DNA of 64,000 nt from Mesoterricola silvestris (GTDB taxonomy: Bacteria; Acidobacteriota; Holophagae; Holophagales; Holophagaceae): the NCBI RefSeq assembly GCF_030295405.1, contig NZ_AP027080.1, positions 2,480,001 through 2,544,000 on the forward strand, in the 5' to 3' direction. This document shows, in pieces, positions 18,494 through 62,247 of this stretch. The translations under genes were made by a program, and so were the position numbers. Each line of letters opens with the position of its first letter. The first letter of the stretch is position 1. The notes beneath the pieces were generated by a model. The model was not told the origin of the DNA and made no database searches. It saw only the letters and a program-made list of their open reading frames with translations.

Positions 18494-18600
18494 ACCAGGT
18501 TTCCGACGCACCCCAAGGATCCCTGCCGAAGCCGCAGATAACAATTTCCTGATAACTTCGGTCCGGCTCCTCAGCCGAGAACGGACTGAGCTCGATGGCT

Positions 18601-18755
18601 CATCCCCTTCATCCTGTTCATCCGATTTCATCCCTGTTCCCGCAGGGCCAGAGCAGCGATGGGTCGGCGCATGCGGGTCAACGACGCGCCACCCCATCTC
18701 ATCGCTGGCCCTGCGGGAACAGGGATGAAATCGGATGAATAGGATGAAGGGGATG
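18601..18755. repeat. Family B palindromic repeat, copy B1
   Basis: This 155-bp imperfect palindrome lies between two convergent genes. The left arm reads CATCCCCTTCATCCTGTTCA, then TTCATCCCTGTTCCCGCAGG; the right arm is its complement (CCTGCGGGAACAGGGATGAA, then GGATGAAGGGGATG). The apex carries GATGGGTCGGCGC. As RNA it would form a long hairpin. Copies lie at 46438-46592 and 62097-62247, with a partial copy at 13431-13516. The rest of the 335-bp gap shows nothing else. Confidence 0.8.
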
Positions 18756-18828
18756 AACGTGCTCCCAGGGAAGGCGCCAAGGCGTTTCGGGCCATCGACT
18801 CCGCCGGGATCCGTGGCTCAGGTCCGGC

Positions 18829-28555: not shown

Positions 28556-28639
28556 GGTTTGCTTCGTTGGGCCCGAACCGTCATGCCCCGCCGGGGGCTG
28601 CTGGGGTGAGGGACGACGTTCCTGGGGGAGGGGGCGGCC

Positions 28640-29009
28640 CATGGGGTCCCGGCCTGGCGCGCCGACCCATCGTTAGCGCTTCCGCAGCAGCGAGCTGCTG
28701 CTGGCGCTTGCCGTTGTCCAGTGACGACAGGTGCGTGAGGGAGTGGGGGGGGGAAGGAGTCGATGGGAATCTTGTGAATTTGGGATCGAAATGTGTTTAA
28801 ACATAGATTTGTTTTTCTGCTTTGACCTTTCTCGGTTGCCGTTCCGACCTGGATGACCTGTTGTCCATCCCCGGAGCGGTCTCAGGGGCGGACATGCCGC
28901 GCCGAGTTCCTACGCCACCTGTCGTCATTGGACAACGGCAAGCGCCAGCAGCAGCTCGCTGCTGCGCAAGCGCTACCGGTGGGTCGGGGCGCCGGGTCGG
29001 GACCGCATG
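28640..29009. repeat. Long inverted repeat with 94-bp arms and a 182-bp AT-rich loop
   Basis: Arms 28640-28733 and 28916-29009 match at 86 of 94 positions in inverted orientation. Each arm also holds its own small palindrome (GCAGCAGCGAGCTGCTGC) and a GCGCCGACCCATCG-like block shared with family B. The 182-bp loop is much more AT-rich than its surroundings and contains TGTTTAAACA. No gene is visible in arms or loop. It fills the gap between the efflux operon start and the 3' end of the sigma-54 activator gene. Confidence 0.8.
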
Positions 29010-29079
29010 GGCCGAACCATCCCGGGGGGCCACGCCACTCAAACCCGCGGCCCCCGGCAGGGCATGCCCGTCCCCGTCC

Positions 29080-35506: not shown

Positions 35507-38005
35507 TCAGCCCCTTTCATCCAGGATCTTCCGGATCTTCATGAGCAGGTCGAAGGGGCTGGCCGGTTTCGACAGGTAGTGGGCCCCATCCTCGAAGAAC
35601 CCCTTCCGGTTGAGCAGGTCCGCGGTGTACCCGCTGATGAACAGCGTCCTGTATTCCAGGCCCTCCCGCCGGACGGCCTCGTAGACCTCCTTGCCGCTCA
35701 TTTTCGGCATCACCACATCCAGGATCATCAGGTCGATGCCCATGCCGGGCGCCAGGGCCTTCTCCAGGGCCTCCTTGCCGTCCGCCGCCTCCAGGACCCG
35801 GTACCCGAATTCCCGGAGGATGCCGCTGGTCATGGTCCGGACCACCTCGTCGTCCTCGGCGAGCAGGAGCGTCTCCGTGCCTCCGGGCGGCCGGGCTTCG
35901 GTTTCCGGAAGGGCGTCGGCCGCCGCCATATCCGCGAGGGGGAGGTAGATGCGGAAGGTGGTTCCCTTGCCCGGTTCGCTGTAGACATTGATGAAACCTT
36001 CGTGCTGCTGGAGGATGCCGTACACCATCGAGAGTCCGAGCCCGGTCCCCTTGCCCAGTTCCTTGGTGGTGAAGAAGGGTTCGAAGATCCGCATGCGGGT
36101 CCGGGCGTCCATGCCGACGCCCGTGTCGGAGACGGTGATGAGGGCGAAGCGTCCCTGCCTGCCGAACCCGTGCAGGGCCGGGAAATCCTTTCCGAGCCGC
36201 CGGGCCTCCGTGGAGATGGAGAGGGTGCCCCCCTTGGGCATGGCATCCCGGGCATTGGTGGCCAGATTCAGGAGCACCTGCTCGATCTGTCCCTCGTCGG
36301 CCATGACGATGAGGCTCTGCTTTCCCGGCCGGGTGACGAGCTCGATGTCCTCCCCGATGAGCCGCGCGAGGAGCTTCTCCACGGTCCCCAGGATCCCGTT
36401 CACATCCACGGGCCGGGGAATGATCACCTGCTTGCGGCTGAAGGCCAGGAGGCTTCGCGTCAGGTTGGCCGCGCGGTCCGAGGCGGCGAGGATCTGGTCG
36501 ATCAAGGTCATCTGCGGATCCTCCGCCTTCATGCGCATCTTCGCGAGATTGCCGAAGCCGATGATGGCCGTGAGGATATTGTTGAAGTCGTGGGCAACGC
36601 CGCCAGCCAGTTGACCTATTGCTTCCATTTTCTGGGACTGATTGAGTTGTTCCATCAGTTTTTTGCGTTCCGTGACGTCCCGGCCGATGGCCAGGGCCCC
36701 CACGATCCGCCCCTCGGCGTCCCGTTCTTCCGTGAACCGGACGCTGTGGGTCTGCATCTCGCCGGAAGCGGCCATGACGTGCATTTCCACTTCCCCCATG
36801 CCGCCCTTGGCGATGACCCCCTGGAGGGCGCTCTGGTAGGCTTCCACCTCGTGGAGGTATCCGGGGATGAGCCCTTCCGGCGACATCTCCAGGGGCGTCC
36901 TGCCCAGGGCGTGCTCGCCATGGCCGCCCAGGGTGGACCGGGCCTGGTGGTTGGTGTAGAGGACCCGGCAATCCCGGTCGTAGCGGATGACATTGTCGGG
37001 CGAATTCTCGGCCAGGGTCCGGAAATCCCGCTCGCGCTGGGCCAGGGCCTCCTCCGCCTCCCTCCGGTCCGTGATGTCCACCCGGATGCCCAGCATCCGG
37101 GTCGTCTTCCCGTCCCGGTCGTGGTCGACGCCGATCCCGGTCACCCGCTGCCAGCGGTAGCTGCCGTCCGCGTGCCTCATGCGCACCTCGCAGGTGTATT
37201 CGTCGAATCCCCCCGTGAGGACCTTTTCCATTTTCCGGGCCACCAGGGGCAGGTCCTCCGGGTGCACCCGCTCCGTCAATTCCCCATGGCCGGAAAATCC
37301 CCGGTGCGGTTCATAGCCGAGCATGGTGTAGAAGGTGGGCGAGGCGTACCACTGGCCGGTCCGGATATCCCAGTCCCAGATGCCGATGTGCGAACCCTCC
37401 AGGGTGAGCCGCAGGCGGTTCTCCGACACCTGCAACTGTTCTTCGGTCCGCTTGCGTTCGACGATGTCCCAGGAGAGGTCCCCCAGGCGGGACAGGATCT
37501 GGACATCGTGCTCGTCGTAATCCGTGGGCTTGTTCCCCACGCCGATGATCGCCGTGATGAGGTTCCCCCGGAACACCGGAACGACCATCTCCCGGAGGAC
37601 CGGCGCGTGGTTTTCCGGCAGTCCCTTGCGGTGGGGCAGGGCGGCGAAGTCGTTGTGGATGACCGGTCGCCGCTCCCGGACGCAGTCGCACCAGACTCCC
37701 GCCTGGTCGATGCTGTAGTGGCTGCCCTTTCCTTCGGCCCGGCACATGTCCTTGAGGGTGTGGGTGGACCAGTTCTGCAGGGTGAGGGTGCGCTGGTCGG
37801 GTTCCAGGAAGTGGTAGAAGCCGATCGTGCTTCCGGAAAGGGCTTCCATTTCGTCCAGGGCCGCGGTCAGGAACGCGTCCATGGTGTGGGTGCCCGCGAA
37901 TTCCAGGAGCCGGAGCCGGGCTTCCATGATGCTCTCATTCCGCAAGGGACGCGCCCGGGCGCCTCGCCGGGGCCTCGCGTGTTTCAGTTCTTGCCCTGCC
38001 TCCAT
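35507..38005 (-). CDS. Hybrid sensor histidine kinase (GAF-PAS-PAS-HisKA-HATPase-REC)
   Basis: This 832-residue sensor has no membrane segment. Order of domains: GAF (about 20-180, with GFYHFLEPDQRTLTLQNWS), PAS with PAC (190-320), second PAS (325-445), HisKA with phospho-acceptor His in GGVAHDFNNILTAIIGFGNL, and the ATPase domain (NLATNARDAMPKGG, DTGVGMD, GTGLGLSMVYGIL). A C-terminal receiver domain carries the phospho-acceptor Asp in DLMILDVVMPKMSG. It is a cytoplasmic hybrid kinase, and no output regulator is adjacent. A perfect AGGAGG precedes ATG 38005. Its last codons lie within repeat A3. Confidence 0.9.
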   Translation of the reverse strand: MEAGQELKHARPRRGARARPLRNESIMEARLRLLEFAGTHTMDAFLTAALDEMEALSGSTIGFYHFLEPDQRTLTLQNWSTHTLKDMCRAEGKGSHYSIDQAGVWCDCVRERRPVIHNDFAALPHRKGLPENHAPVLREMVVPVFRGNLITAIIGVGNKPTDYDEHDVQILSRLGDLSWDIVERKRTEEQLQVSENRLRLTLEGSHIGIWDWDIRTGQWYASPTFYTMLGYEPHRGFSGHGELTERVHPEDLPLVARKMEKVLTGGFDEYTCEVRMRHADGSYRWQRVTGIGVDHDRDGKTTRMLGIRVDITDRREAEEALAQRERDFRTLAENSPDNVIRYDRDCRVLYTNHQARSTLGGHGEHALGRTPLEMSPEGLIPGYLHEVEAYQSALQGVIAKGGMGEVEMHVMAASGEMQTHSVRFTEERDAEGRIVGALAIGRDVTERKKLMEQLNQSQKMEAIGQLAGGVAHDFNNILTAIIGFGNLAKMRMKAEDPQMTLIDQILAASDRAANLTRSLLAFSRKQVIIPRPVDVNGILGTVEKLLARLIGEDIELVTRPGKQSLIVMADEGQIEQVLLNLATNARDAMPKGGTLSISTEARRLGKDFPALHGFGRQGRFALITVSDTGVGMDARTRMRIFEPFFTTKELGKGTGLGLSMVYGILQQHEGFINVYSEPGKGTTFRIYLPLADMAAADALPETEARPPGGTETLLLAEDDEVVRTMTSGILREFGYRVLEAADGKEALEKALAPGMGIDLMILDVVMPKMSGKEVYEAVRREGLEYRTLFISGYTADLLNRKGFFEDGAHYLSKPASPFDLLMKIRKILDERG

Positions 38006-38121
38006 GCGCTCCTCCTTTCCCGGGATCCGGGACCGGTCAGGCCGTGGAAGTGCGTTCGTCACATGATGGAAACCATGAATGGCGGGGGCAAGCATGACCC
38101 CGTACCGTCCCCGCCGCAAGT

Positions 38122-38643
38122 CCTAGGAGCCCGGCGACGTAATCGTTCGTGTCCCAGACGTTCGCCCTGTTTCGTCCTCGCCGGCCAAGCCGGCGATGAC
38201 GGGGGGGTGCGGAAGGGACGTCGGGGCTGGGCTCCGCCCAACTCACTTCGTTGAGCAGAAGGGATTTCGGAAGGAAATGGCTCTCCTGGAAGGCCCAGGC
38301 GAGGAGAGCGGCTCCCAAGGGTTCGTGGGTCTGCTTCGCGATGACCCTCTCGGTGCCGGTGGGCGCCGACGCTGAATGGTTTGCGCCGCCCACAATCTAT
38401 TGAAGTCAGCTCGAGCCCAGACCTGCCCAAGGCCCGGTTCGAGACGAGGTCGCTTTGCCAATTAGCGTTGGCGCCGTCCAATACCCTCCTCGCAGCACTC
38501 GAAGAGAGGCCCTGAGGTGGGCCGGGGCCAATGGGTGAAACACAGGCCCAACCATGGGATGAGAGCCTTCCGTTGCTGCGGGCTTGGCCCGCAGCAACGA
38601 ACCGGGGCGAACGTCCGGGACACGTGCGATTACATAGCCTAGG
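38122..38643. repeat. Family C giant palindrome, copy C3
   Basis: This 522-bp imperfect palindrome lies in a divergent gene gap. Outer arms: CCTAGG, GTAATCG and CGTGTCCCAGACGTTCGCCC on the left (38122-38168) and their complement on the right (38605-38643). Subterminal hairpins lie at 38173-38201 (12-bp stem, loop CCAAG) and 38571-38599 (12-bp stem CGTTGCTGCGGG, loop CTTGG, which reads CCAAG on the other strand). The apex arms are GGCGCCGACGCT near 38362 and AGCGTTGGCGCC near 38464. The two subterminal stems differ in sequence. No open reading frame with coding character was found. Confidence 0.8.
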
Positions 38644-38705
38644 TAAACTACCGTATTCAAATGAGATCAGACCTCCTGGGATGATCTGGGATCCCGGAGT
38701 GGCGC

Positions 38706-39107
38706 ATGGAACCGATGGTCTGGCAGGGGAACTGGGAAATGGGCGAAACCCGGCTGGACGGCCAGCACAGGGCCATGGTCCGGGCCATCAACCTCCTGGC
38801 CACCCGCCTCCAGGAGGGCCGGCCCCGGGAGGGGGTGAACCGGTCCATCACCTTCCTCATGATCTACGCGGAACTGCACTTCCGGGAGGAGGAGGCGGCC
38901 ATGGAGGCCTGCGGCTACCCGGAGCTGTCCGTGCACGTGGCCCAGCATCGGGAGTGTTCCCGGCGCATCGAGGACATGCTCGCCAAGTGGCGGGAGGGGG
39001 ATTCCGGCCTCCTGACCGAGGTCATCGCCTTCTTCAATTACTGGCTCACGGAGCACCTGGGCAACGCGGACCGGCGCTTTTCGGAGTACCTGCGCCGCCC
39101 GGCCTGA
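38706..39107 (+). CDS. Bacteriohemerythrin
   Basis: The 133-residue protein has the complete hemerythrin di-iron pattern: H in LDGQHRAM, HFREEE in the second helix, HVAQHREC in the third, and WLTEHLGNADRR near the C-terminus (H and D ligands), plus N-terminal W-x-G-x-W. Such proteins bind O2 reversibly for storage, delivery or sensing in micro-oxic bacteria. GGAG is 6 nt upstream of the ATG. It is the second hemerythrin-type gene in the window and is of the classical type, unlike the HHE-type protein at 12488-12898. A family C palindrome lies immediately upstream. Confidence 0.9.
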   Translation: MEPMVWQGNWEMGETRLDGQHRAMVRAINLLATRLQEGRPREGVNRSITFLMIYAELHFREEEAAMEACGYPELSVHVAQHRECSRRIEDMLAKWREGDSGLLTEVIAFFNYWLTEHLGNADRRFSEYLRRPA

Positions 39108-46437: not shown

Positions 46438-46592
46438 ATCCCCTTCATCCTGTTCATCCAGTTTTTATCCCTGTTTCCGCAGGGCCAGTGATGGAGTGGG
46501 GCGGCGCGCAGTTGATCTGCATGCGCCGACCCATCCCTGCTTTGGCCCTGCGGGAACAGGGATGAATAAAGGATTAACAGGATGAAGGGGAT
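46438..46592. repeat. Family B palindromic repeat, copy B2
   Basis: Arms are ATCCCCTTCATCCTGTTCAT and CCTGTTTCCGCAGGGCCAG on the left, with complementary GGCCCTGCGGGAACAGGGAT and GGATGAAGGGGAT on the right. The apex holds ATGCGCCGACCCATCCC. A GGGTGATC/GATCACCC pair just outside (46434 and 46603) extends the pairing. It separates convergent genes. The rest of the 335-bp gap shows only a weak CCTGGC/GCCAGG hairpin at 46347-46371. Confidence 0.78.
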
Positions 46593-49219: not shown

Positions 49220-49729
49220 ATGAACCTCCGCAAGGTCCTGCCCCCGGTGTGCGCGGTCCTGGTGCTGGGCTGCGTGCGGGACAAGCCGTACGCCTTCGAC
49301 CAGCCCAATCTCCAGGTGCGCGCCACCTTCCCCGGCGAGCCCCGGCAGGCCCAGTACCCGGAGGACACGCCCTTCGGCCCCATCCTGTGGTACAGCTTCG
49401 CCTACACGCCGCCCGGCCGCATGGACCTGAACTACCGGGTGGACGTGGGCAACCTCCCCCCCGGCACCCGGGGCGGGGACACGACCCCCGCCGCCCTGGC
49501 CACGTTCCAGGGTTTCCTGGCCAAGCGCCTGGGCGGAACCCTGGAGCGCACCGATCTGCCCCCCGCCCGGGGCCCCGGCTTCAGCTACCGCATCCGCACC
49601 GGCGCCAAGTCCTGGGTGGAAGGCATCGTCGTCCTCAAGCGCGGCCGCCTCCACCACGCCCAGGCCACCGTGGACCGCGCGGACGATCCAAACCTTACGA
49701 CCTTCCTGGGGTCCTTCGCGGTGGACTAG
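49220..49729 (+). CDS. Hypothetical lipoprotein
   Basis: The 169-residue product has a lipobox (LVLGC, cleavage before Cys18), so it is a lipid-anchored envelope protein of about 152 mature residues. The mature part has beta-strand character (LQVRATFPGEP, DLNYRVDVGNLP, SWVEGIVVLKRGRLHHAQATV), resembling a small substrate-binding or chaperone-like fold, but no family was recognised. GAGGG lies about 8 nt upstream. A 500-bp gap with a family C palindrome follows. Confidence 0.65.
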   Translation: MNLRKVLPPVCAVLVLGCVRDKPYAFDQPNLQVRATFPGEPRQAQYPEDTPFGPILWYSFAYTPPGRMDLNYRVDVGNLPPGTRGGDTTPAALATFQGFLAKRLGGTLERTDLPPARGPGFSYRIRTGAKSWVEGIVVLKRGRLHHAQATVDRADDPNLTTFLGSFAVD

Positions 49730-49742
49730 GCGGGGGGGGGGT

Positions 49743-50160
49743 GCGGGTTCCCCCATTGCGCCCCGTTCGTTGACGCAGGCAAGCTGCGTCAACGGAAAGC
49801 TCACGGGCATGGGGGATCGGTGGGTGTTTGCACGCTCCGGCTTCGAGGGGGCCGCGTGGACAGGGGGGCGCGGGGCCGCCCGGAATGGCCTAGGGCTCCG
49901 AGGACACGCTGCGAGTGGTGCCGGGTCGGTCCGGAAGAGCGCCGACGTTGGATGCTAGCGTCGGCGCGATCCGTAGGCCGACCGGAACCACTCGAAGCGA
50001 TTCGATCGGGCATAGGCCCCCCCGGAGAGCCGCAGTCTCTCCACCGGGTCCCCCCCATCGAAGCCGAGGCGTGCCAACACCCACCGATCCCCCCCTCCGT
50101 GGGCTTTCCGCTGACGCAGCTTGTCTGCGTCAGCGAACGGGGCGAAATGGAGGGACCCGC
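49743..50160. repeat. Family C giant palindrome, copy C1
   Basis: This 418-bp palindrome is centred near 49952. Outer arms are 49743-49769 and 50134-50160 (24 of 27 positions pair). Subterminal hairpins are 49768-49794 (stem CGTTGACGCAG, loop GCAAG) and 50109-50135 (stem CGCTGACGCAG, loop CTTGT). Inner arms of about 50 bp (GGATCGGTGGGTGTT and CACGC, CGGCTTCGA blocks) follow. The apex is GCGCCGACG (49939) with CGTCGGCGC (49959). No gene is present. It separates two plus-strand genes. Confidence 0.85.
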
Positions 50161-56929: not shown

Positions 56930-57408
56930 GGCATGTGTCCCAACCCTGCGTCAGGGATTCGCTGACGCAGGCAAGCTGCGTCAGCGGAGGACTCACGTCT
57001 AGAGGTTAGGCGGAAGTGTTGGCACGCTCCGGCTTCGATGATCGTTGGGGGTGGGTGGGGGACTGGGGTTCTCCGGGTGGGCCTAGGGTGTTAAGGCACG
57101 CTTCGAGTGGGGGTGGTGGGGGTGGGGGTGCGCCGACGTTGATCGGTTGGGGGGCTCACAATCTCATGGATTGGGCGAGAGCCAATGGGGTGATCAGCGT
57201 CGGCGCGGAAGGGGGGTCAATCCGGGAAACTTGAAGCGGGTCGACTGGGCATAGGGCCATCAGGGGAGCCTCTGGTTCCGGGTTGGGCGCGTCGCTCATC
57301 GAAGCCGGGGCGTGCCAACACTTCCGCTTAACCTTTCGGTGTGAGTCCTGCGCTGACGCAGCTTGCCTGCGTCAGCGAATCCCTGACGCACGTCCGGGAC
57401 ACGTGCGC
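56930..57408. repeat. Family C giant palindrome, copy C2
   Basis: This 479-bp palindrome is centred near 57169. Outer arms contain GTGTCCC plus CTGCGTCAGGGATT on the left and the complementary AATCCCTGACGCACGT and GGGACAC on the right. Subterminal hairpins at 56960-56986 and 57351-57377 share the stem CGCTGACGCAG, with loops GCAAG and CTTGC. The inner block GTGTTGGCACGC/CGGCTTCGA matches C1. The apex is GCGCCGACG (57130) with CGTCGGCGC (57198). Its right end abuts the stop codon of the EAL/GGDEF gene. Confidence 0.85.
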
Positions 57409-59325
57409 CTACCTGCCGACCCGTCTCGGCTGGCGGCGCTCCACGAAGAGGATGGAGCCTTCGCGGCCCTTGGCTTCCTTCTTGGCGACGGCGGCGCTGG
57501 CGGAGATTTCGTGGTGGTTGGCGTAGTGGCCGGGGTGGGCCTTCACGGCGCCCATGGAGAGGCTCAGGAGGGGGTGGAGCACCTGGCGGCGGGAGCGGTC
57601 CTCGCCGGCGTAGCCGCGGAGGTCCAGGACCTCGGGGCTGAAGAAACGGTCCAGGCCGGCGTCGAAGGCCTCCAGGAGGGCGTTGCAGCGGCGCTCCCAG
57701 TCGGGGCTGCGGAAGACCAGCATGAAATCGTCCCCGCCGATGTGGCCGACGAAGTCCAGGTCCGGGTCGCAGGCGGAGCGGAGCAGGTCCCCGGTCCACT
57801 GGATGACGTCGTCGCCCCGGCGGTAGCCGTGGACGTCGTTGTAGGGCTTGAAGTGGTCCAGGTCGCAGTAGCAGGCCACGAAGGGAAGGTTCTGGTGGAG
57901 GAGGTCGTCCAGGTGCTCGTTGATGGGGACGTTGCCGGGGAGGCCCGTGAGGGGGTTGGCGTAGCGCGCGGCCTTGATCTGCATCTGGGTGATCTCGCGC
58001 ATGAGGTCGTGGCCGCTGCCCATGCCCGCGTAGGCGCCCTCCCGGGTCAGGATGTAGCCGTGGAGGATGTGGCGGGGATCGGATTCCACGATGAGGCGGC
58101 TGAGCTCGTGGAGGCTGGTGTGGTGGTCCAGCACCAGGATGTTCCGGTCCATGATGGCCTCCACCGGCTTCTTGCCGTACACCTCCCGGGAAAAGGGCTT
58201 GAACATCATGTCCATGAACACGTGGCGGTTGATGAGCCCCACCGGGATCCCGTCCCGCACGACGGGGATGGACTGCAGGTCGGCGTCGGCCTGGAAGAGC
58301 TTTTCCACCGTTCCGTTGGGCGTGTCCGGGGAGAGTGCGGGCACCTCCACCATGAGCCGGGCCGCGGTGGACCGGGTGTCCCGGATCCAGCCGGATCCGT
58401 CCGGCTCCCGGCGGCGGAAGAGTCCGGGGGCCGTCGCGGCGTGGGGCAGGGGGGCTGGGCGGCCCAGGAGGTAGCCCTGGCCGTAGTCCAGGCCCAGGTC
58501 CCGCACCACCGCCAGGTCCGCCTCCAGCTCGAGGCCCTCCCCCACCACCTTCGCCCCGGTCTTGGCGGCGATGTCGCAGAGGGACTTCAGGAACTGGAGC
58601 TTGACGGGGTCCCGGCTCACGCCCTGGATGAAGTGCATGTCCACCTTCACGAACTCGGGACGCAGCTCGGACCAGAGGCGCAGGCTGGAGAAGCCCTCGC
58701 CCAGGTCGTCCAGGGCCACGGCGAAGCCCAGCTTCCGGAACAGCGCGATGGCCTTGGCCAGCACGCCCAGGTCCGTGATGGGCAGGGCCTCGGTGAGCTC
58801 GATGACGATGCGCCCCGGGGGCACCCCCAGCTCCTCCAGCCCCTGGATGGGCTGCAGGGAGCTGCGGGCCGCCGTGGCCAGGCTGCCGGGGCTCATGTTG
58901 AGGAAGAGCTTCTGGGTGGCGCCGCTGGCGGCGTAGGCCCGCACCAGGGTGGCGCAGCAGGCGCACTCCAGTTCGTAGAGCTGGTTCGTGAGCGCGGCCA
59001 CCTTGAACAGGCTCGCCGGGGAATGGAGCAGGGTGTCCGAGGGGCCCCGGATCAGCCCCTCGAAGGCCAGCACGACGCCGGTCTCCAGGTCCACGATGGG
59101 CTGGAAGTGGGGCTTGAGCCGGTCCTCGGCGAGGATGGCCCGCAGCGTGTCCCCCAGGCCGGAGAGGCCTTCGCCGGTGCCCTGGGGATGCACGGGCGCT
59201 TCCGCTTCCAGGCCCAGACGGGCCCGGCCGGTGGTGAGGGAGAGGGAGGCGAGGGGAACCATGACCCCACGGTCAGGCCGGGGTGTTCCGGGGGCGTGGC
59301 GCGGCTGCGAAATGCCTGTGAACAT
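57409..59325 (-). CDS. EAL-CBS-GGDEF c-di-GMP signalling protein
   Basis: The 638-residue protein joins an N-terminal EAL phosphodiesterase domain (60-300), a CBS pair region (290-430) and a C-terminal GGDEF cyclase domain (450-610). EAL key residues are mostly present: EGLIR (89-93, Gly in place of Ala), LNMSPGSL, IELTEALP, DDLGEGFSSL, KVD, GEGLE and YGQGYLLGRP, so hydrolysis is plausible. The GGDEF signature reads GGDDF. CBS domains could bind adenine nucleotides. No membrane helices are seen. The start is uncertain (59325 or 59262), with no good ribosome site. It follows the yfiR-like gene by 52 bp on the same strand. Confidence 0.84.
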   Translation of the reverse strand: MFTGISQPRHAPGTPRPDRGVMVPLASLSLTTGRARLGLEAEAPVHPQGTGEGLSGLGDTLRAILAEDRLKPHFQPIVDLETGVVLAFEGLIRGPSDTLLHSPASLFKVAALTNQLYELECACCATLVRAYAASGATQKLFLNMSPGSLATAARSSLQPIQGLEELGVPPGRIVIELTEALPITDLGVLAKAIALFRKLGFAVALDDLGEGFSSLRLWSELRPEFVKVDMHFIQGVSRDPVKLQFLKSLCDIAAKTGAKVVGEGLELEADLAVVRDLGLDYGQGYLLGRPAPLPHAATAPGLFRRREPDGSGWIRDTRSTAARLMVEVPALSPDTPNGTVEKLFQADADLQSIPVVRDGIPVGLINRHVFMDMMFKPFSREVYGKKPVEAIMDRNILVLDHHTSLHELSRLIVESDPRHILHGYILTREGAYAGMGSGHDLMREITQMQIKAARYANPLTGLPGNVPINEHLDDLLHQNLPFVACYCDLDHFKPYNDVHGYRRGDDVIQWTGDLLRSACDPDLDFVGHIGGDDFMLVFRSPDWERRCNALLEAFDAGLDRFFSPEVLDLRGYAGEDRSRRQVLHPLLSLSMGAVKAHPGHYANHHEISASAAVAKKEAKGREGSILFVERRQPRRVGR

Positions 59326-61644: not shown

Positions 61645-61975
61645 GACGTAAAGGTACGGGTTCCGGACTTTCGCCCCGTTTCGTCATCGCCGGACAAGCC
61701 GGCGATGACGGGGGGAGGGGGAGAGGGATGGGGCTGTGCTTCGCCCAGGGGCTCCGTTGGGCGGGTGGGAGGCCGGATCGGGGGGGGCCTCCCGGGAAGG
61801 GGGTGGGATGGAGCGCGGCTTCCATGGGGGATGGGGTCGCTGCGCGTGGGATGGGTCGGCGCCGGCGGGCGCCGACGATGATTGGTTCGGGGGGCTCTGA
61901 ACCTGGAGGGGCGCCGCTTGGCAAATCAACGTCGGCGCGGGCGGTTTGGCCCGGACCACCCTTCGCAGCGCGTCC
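61645..61975. repeat. Family C palindrome, right-truncated copy C4
   Basis: The left outer arm (GTAAAGGTACGGGTTCCGGA, then CTTTCGCCCCGTTTC) and left subterminal hairpin (61682-61710, 12-bp stem CGTCATCGCCGG, loop ACAAG) are intact. The apex arms are GGGCGCCGACG (61868) and CGTCGGCGC near 61929-61937. The right arm pairs for about 40 bp beyond the apex and then ends without the right hairpin. No gene is present in this part of the 914-bp gap. Confidence 0.7.
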
Positions 61976-62096: not shown

Positions 62097-62247
62097 ATCC
62101 CCTTCATCCTGATCATCCGATTCATCCCTGTTCCAGCAGGGCCATAGCCGGGATGGGTCGGGGCATGCAGAGCAACTGCGCGCCGCCCCACCTCGGCGCT
62201 GGCCCTGCGGGAACAGGGATGAATTGGATGGACTGGATGAAGGGGAT
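62097..62247. repeat. Family B palindromic repeat, copy B3
   Basis: Left arm: ATCCCCTTCATCCTGATCAT, then TTCATCCCTGTTCCAGCAGG. Right arm: the complementary CCTGCGGGAACAGGGATGAA, then GGATGAAGGGGAT. The apex has GATGGGTCGGGGCATG and GCGCGCCGCCCC. It lies downstream of C4 in the same gap, between the pit operon and the 3' end of phoB. The remaining 200 bp up to 62451 show nothing clear. Confidence 0.78.

Follow-up and report, generated by a model that had tools for sequence, protein, structure and literature searches.

Insertion sequences of the IS200/IS605 type have no terminal inverted repeats, and their two hairpins lie on one strand; IS701 follows the rule of a YTAR target with a 4-bp duplication. 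A search of a limited literature collection for IS701 together with YTAR gave no result. Bacterial MITEs (RUP, Correia/NEMIS, ERIC, Nezha and others) are short and non-coding, have terminal inverted repeats (TIRs) and foldback potential, and occur in many intergenic copies with few in relatives. REP/BIME repeats (GTAG and CGTC super-families) and RAYT/TIRYT systems are marked by palindromic repeats near 3' ends, often of convergent genes, the REP/BIME units being 20–40 bp long with an unpaired GTAG or CGTC tag. CGTC-tagged REPs are defined by this unpaired tag, an 8–9-bp stem starting with A/T pairs and a CCA tail, and are without a known transposase (PMC3733652). Di Nocera and colleagues placed most convergent REPs of two genomes less than 20 bp away from the 3' end of each neighbouring ORF, and in other Acidobacteria tyrosine transposases with inverted repeats on both sides have been described (PMC3733652). 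Among DDE-type enzymes, duplications of 4 or 5 bp are given for known IS701 members and of 4–9 bp for Geobacillus copies in PMC8024623, while an IS630 preference for TA within 5'-CTAG-3' is recorded in the reference list of PMC2170065 (Tenzen and Ohtsubo 1991).

The window analysed here, a stretch of 64,000 nucleotides of the Mesoterricola silvestris genome, contains an element (38127–38638) in which two GC-rich hairpins lie inside 62-nt inverted arms. We consider it likely that such hairpins are the subterminal part of TIRs of about 50–75 bp, and that the elements are non-autonomous foldback mini-transposons of 330–500 bp, MITE-like, that insert at CTAG/YTAR and were moved in trans by a DDE-type transposase. 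The family shares with bacterial MITEs all of the features listed above; terminal inverted repeats were found together with many dispersed non-coding copies that are absent from the same sites in relatives. It differs from those MITEs in its larger size, in having two subterminal hairpins that are almost perfectly paired while their stems vary, in CTAG edges that fall on stop codons and in a genome without transposase of the tested families. As in REP/BIME and RAYT/TIRYT systems the palindromic repeats lie near 3' ends, often convergent ones, but the elements are 330–500 bp long with inverted-repeat ends, their CGTC lies within an 11–13-bp stem, and the genome has no tyrosine transposase. Unlike the same-strand hairpins of IS200/IS605, the loops lie on opposite strands within inverted repeats. 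The convergent 3'-end location is not new, because convergent REPs had already been reported less than 20 bp from ORF 3' ends (PMC3733652); by size, tags and enzyme the family is not REP. The family is well defined but ordinary in kind, and what is unusual is that the target explains the location so neatly.

The focal element and its family

The features of the focal copy and of the other copies in the window are as follows.

38123–38126, no strand: CTAG at the left edge, target site copy (from the sequence and from genome-wide CTAG enrichment outside ends)
38127–38172, plus strand: left outer arm of the terminal inverted repeat, GAGCCCGGCGACGTAATCGTTCGT-GTCCCAGACGTTCGCCCTGTTT (inverted repeat, conserved over copies)
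38173–38201, plus strand: left subterminal hairpin, CGTCCTCGCCGG-CCAAG-CCGGCGATGACG, one C.T mismatch in the stem
38202–38570, no strand: interior, partly foldback, with central hairpin GCGCCGACG...CGTTGGCGC at about 38364–38470
38571–38599, minus strand: right subterminal hairpin, CGTTGCTGCGGG-CTTGG-CCCGCAGCAACG; loop CCAAG when read inward, stem unlike the left one
38600–38638, minus strand: right outer arm of the terminal inverted repeat, shortened, GGCTATGTAATCGCACGT-GTCCCGGAC
38639–38642, no strand: CTAG at the right edge (from the sequence)
49747–50156, no strand: second element, of the other subfamily, stems CGTTGACGCAG/CGCTGACGCAG
56937–57400, no strand: third element, 8 nt off the stop codon of the minus-strand gene 57409–59262
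61660–61713, plus strand: left end of a fourth, decayed element, perfect CGTCATCGCCGG hairpin with loop ACAAG

The outer arms of the focal element are 79% complementary over 62 nt, and at the left end identity across copies falls to 35% in the flank beyond the outer arm. An earlier note on this DNA had reported different stems at the two hairpins of one element, which the focal copy bears out (38173–38201 versus 38571–38599). The perfect CGTCATCGCCGG stem belongs to the copy at 61694, the focal left stem having a C.T mismatch (CGTCCTCGCCGG against ...GATGACG). The isolated hairpins, 27–29 nt each, folded better than 200 of 200 shuffles (z −5.3 to −7.7). For the whole focal element z was −6.8 as DNA and −6.7 as RNA, and for the second element, folded as RNA, −19. 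The same hairpin architecture was observed at 49779/50124, 56971/57366 and 61694; for the decayed fourth element (from 61660) no right end was recognised. The CTAG to the left of the second element (49726–49729) contains the TAG stop of gene 49220–49729. The sequence CGCCCCGTTCGT, proposed earlier as a flank marker, matched the window 17 times when as many as 2 mismatches were allowed, versus 12.25 expected, which is chance level. No intrinsic terminator (hairpin plus T-tract) was found in 37900–38800, and Rfam gave no gathering-level match within the 64-kb window. The window also holds unrelated long inverted repeats with arms of 68–127 nt (28577–29071, 18600–18756, 46438–46592 and 62097–62247), the last of which resembles another in the genome at about 3138.5 kb.

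Similarity searches of the 5-Mb genome placed the family at 83 or more merged places. A covariance model of the end, built from 47 distinct end sequences over 52 positions, found at least 150 ends, and among the ends listed 112 pair up, as plus/minus pairs, into 56 elements. Paired elements are mostly 330–502 bp long, the exceptions being two pairs of 73 bp and one of 1124 bp. The latter (3725471–3726594, 1.1 kb) was considered as an autonomous element and rejected, as it consists of two elements flanking a small gene of its own. The two 73-bp versions (4800957–4801029 and 2147822–2147894) and a further copy in sister species G004 (L105 1088–1208) have a single-hairpin layout of outer arm, one hairpin of NCAAG type or variant, and outer arm; they are near-perfect palindromes that sit beside a stop codon or between convergent genes. 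Of two subfamilies, one carries CGTCATCGCCGG on the left and CGTTGCTGCGGG on the right, the other carries CGnnGACGCAG at both ends, and nine mixed elements join ends of both. Co-variation between the two ends of an element was significant only in one subfamily (the SF2 arms), and it is confounded by sub-subfamilies. Another hairpin pair in the genome, at 667827 and 668006 (GCATTCGCAGCAG/CTGCTGCGAATGCG and GCAATCGCAGCAG/CTGCTGGGATCGCG, after GACCCAyCGGTAGC), looks like a separate repeat family.

Target site, gene context and mobility

The conserved arm reads GTCCCGGACnTTCGCCCCGGTTCG and is preceded by CTAG-GAGCCyGGCTACGTAATCGyACGT; likewise, outward of the conserved GTCCCGGAC comes GAGCCyGGCTACGTAATCGyACGT and then CTAG. 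The elements have sharp ends, YTAR followed by GAGCCyGGCTACGTAATCGyACGTGTCCCGGAC..., and sit at CTAG/YTAR. Within 30 nt outside the 150 listed ends CTAG occurs 66 times, a 28-fold enrichment over farther flanks, with distance modes of 24 nt (from GTCCC) and 10–12 nt. A YTAR lies within 28 nt in only 84 of the 150 listed ends, many ends being shortened. The CTAG at the edges is itself palindromic; the sole clean non-palindromic target duplication seen is that of element 2988854, with direct repeats TTAG/TTAG.

CTAG is rare, with 126 occurrences in the 354 kb of genome stretches read. Stop codons account for 48 of them, intergenic DNA away from stop codons for 67 and the remaining coding positions for 11. 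As it is rare in this GC-rich genome and found mostly at stop codons or between genes, insertions fall beside stops. Using gene calls from a codon-usage gene finder written for this analysis, 36 of 56 paired elements were found between convergent genes versus 20 of 182 control gaps (p=1e-14), the control gaps, like the control stop codons below, coming from the same genome stretches as the elements and thus not being a random genome sample. The remaining paired elements lie between tandem genes (17) or, the focal copy included, between divergent genes (3). Stop codons facing an element were at most 25 nt away in 79 of 89 cases, and the nearest start codons were at least 66 nt off. TAG was the stop codon beside the element in 74 of 111 cases versus 66 of 170 controls (p=4e-6). 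Gaps between convergent genes would be favoured in that an insertion there costs neither gene its end, and a duplicated CTAG could supply a TAG stop to both.

The elements are mobile on the time scale of species. End matches in five sister species numbered 13, 10, 3, 1 and 1, with few copies in G004 (about 88% identity in genes), G005 and G002. Almost no end matches were obtained in 396 genomes of the phylum, and an exact-pattern scan of named genomes, the own genome left out, gave 13 scattered single matches in unrelated organisms. At orthologous convergent gene pairs, elements of 400–500 bp here compare with sister gaps of about 2–13 bp at two sites: where element 4893299–4893798 lies, the two stops are 7 bp apart in G004 and about 2 bp apart in G001, and at 395697–396112 G001 and G003 have about 8–13 bp. 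At two other orthologous sites the sisters have 46–51 bp with a terminator-like hairpin in place of the 400–500-bp element. None of these empty sites offers a CTAG junction that is exact to the base and comes from a very close relative, and some relatives have a terminator or additional bases there. At one of these convergent pairs a different palindrome, about 420 bp long, stands in G003 (L197, C179:42900–44000) in place of the family member of the own genome.

Pairing and loops of the hairpins

Over the 11-bp stem of 47 distinct ends, 99.0% of cells were paired versus 82% in shuffled sets, and covariation was 0.484 versus 0.153; slid versions of the pairing were also far below the real one. 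Two-sided changes numbered 89 versus 22.8 upon shuffling, in agreement with the compensatory change that the earlier note had described. Its account of interchangeable stems with a fixed loop holds for the stems, which vary while pairing is kept; the loop is not fixed, as the 138 ends fitted in a wider set read NCAAG in 115 cases, CGGGG in 11 and other sequences in 12. In this wider set, which admitted at most one mismatch per end and is biased towards pairing, 29 stem variants had 1571 of 1596 pairs in Watson-Crick form (about 98%), the rest being 2 G.T and 23 other mismatches. Since the hairpin lies within the inverted repeat, the loop, read inward from either end, is each time found on the inward strand, so that a right-hand copy with ACAAG on the opposite strand, earlier singled out as an exception, is the rule.

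No G-U cell was present among the 47 distinct ends. This is unlike selection on one RNA strand and agrees with a process acting on the DNA or with selection on the two strands together; the hairpin may act in DNA form. Pairing would then be kept by a process at the level of DNA, and not by selection on a single RNA strand. Such a process could be a requirement of transposition for a symmetric end structure, or the repair of imperfect hairpins by template switching.

Candidate enzymes and competing explanations

Searches for DDE_5 (IS701), DDE_3 (IS630) and Y1_Tnp (PF01797) proteins found none in the own genome. A search of 100 relatives, of which several have incomplete assemblies, gave no autonomous copy that combined the two ends and the same tip with an intact transposase. 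A DDE-type transposase may have moved the elements in trans and since been lost from the own genome. As a guess, the mobilising enzyme would be IS701-like with a 4-bp YTAR duplication in the first place and IS630-like in the second. Full-length IS701 copies in G001 and G004 occupy a duplicated CTAG, the TAG of which in most copies closes a flanking gene in frame; in copy L155 the TAG of the duplication ends both convergent genes. One family member in G004 carries an IS701 fragment (DDE_5, E 1.4e-24) in its central loop. On either side this member is bordered by a CTAG that provides the stop codon of a convergent gene, and its site is a single CTAG in G005 and G001. IS701 differs from the family in its absence from the own genome and in the terminal repeats of its intact G001 and G004 copies (CACTACTGTGTCATAA), on which account IS701 ends were rejected as the ends of the elements.

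A 268-bp element in G004 has the tip GAGCCTGTCTACGTAAT and CTAG edges in common with the family and recurs at 140462–140734 of the own genome (L215). The copy there represents a second family of about 270 bp, with TIR GAGCCTGTCTACGTAATAGAAGGCCCCGCGA and CTAG at both edges, that is shared with G004 and G002. In G004 (C1:1085000–1088700; L212 863–2669) an IS630-type element, with a PD-(D/E)XK nuclease-like gene next to its transposase, has inserted at a CTAG within a 268-bp palindromic element; the stretch 1085752–1087891 was rejected as an autonomous element, being the 268-bp relative interrupted by IS630 at an internal CTAG.

An IS630/Tc1-mariner-type transposase might mobilise the elements, with the TA inside CTAG being duplicated, and the preference recorded in the reference list of PMC2170065 would suit this, as would the IS630 copies of G004, which occupy CTAG, also at the edge of a family member and within the 268-bp element. 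We regard it as rather unlikely. The terminal repeats of intact sister copies (TGTAGGCCGCCAGAA) differ from the family ends, no DDE_3 protein is present in the own genome, the TTAG...TTAG copy is better matched by a 4-bp duplication, and the sole transposase piece within a family member is IS701-like. Far less probable still is that the hairpins are single-stranded DNA recognition structures of an HUH/Y1 enzyme, as in IS200/IS605, REP/RAYT or the TIR-associated tyrosine transposases of other Acidobacteria. Short GC-rich hairpins with a conserved loop, the convergent 3'-end location seen for published REPs (PMC3733652) and 165-aa Y1 proteins in two sister species speak for it, but the scanned Y1 loci of the sisters have no convincing family end nearby (best E 0.02), an unpaired GTAG or CGTC tag is lacking, and the PF01797 search, positive in those two species and in E. 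coli, gave nothing in the own genome. The search for a Y1/HUH gene that the earlier note had suggested thus came out negative there, and its reading of the hairpins as RNA or single-stranded DNA recognised in the IS200/IS605 or REP/RAYT manner gives way before the absence of Y1, the terminal inverted repeats with opposite-strand loops, CTAG/YTAR edges of DDE type and the lack of G-U.

Elements directly after stop codons on both sides could also be bidirectional 3'-end structures maintained by the host as terminators or exonuclease barriers, under RNA selection on both strands and with mobility secondary. Such selection would likewise bar G-U, since a G-U pair turns into C-A on the opposite strand, and at two sites the sisters have terminator-like hairpins in the matching gap. 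This account is nevertheless distinctly improbable: the focal element has no T-tract terminator and lies between divergent genes, elements are missing at the same sites in sister species, and CTAG targeting with purifying selection suffices for the location. A more serious possibility, though somewhat short of an even one, bears on the hairpin alone and can stand beside the mini-transposon reading, namely that stem compensation reflects only the shared ancestry of a few stem types together with mutational repair of quasi-palindromes, the hairpin being without function. The stem types do resemble cassettes (CGTTG+TCGCCGG and CGTC+ATCGCCGG), a few ancestral stems are common to many copies, and template switching gives two-sided changes without G-U intermediates. 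Against it stand the 29 stem variants with about 98% Watson-Crick pairing, ends with more than one mismatch having been omitted, when complementarity between the focal element's long-range outer arms is just 79%.

It is conceivable, if improbable, that a foldback lineage, through its CTAG specificity in a CTAG-poor genome, colonises stops shared by convergent genes and renews both by duplicating its target, its cassette-exchanged hairpins being at once a DNA structure required for recognition of the ends and two-way insulators of gene ends across the genome. For the non-autonomous mini-transposons that we favour, the lesson is that compensatory change free of G-U in a DNA hairpin is no evidence for RNA. 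They offer an explanation for palindromic repeats that crowd the 3' ends of convergent genes and are usually read as having an RNA function. Target choice alone can render a mobile element nearly harmless, in that, in a genome that retains CTAG chiefly at stop codons or between genes, the need for this site leads it to gene ends, where the stop codon can be regenerated.
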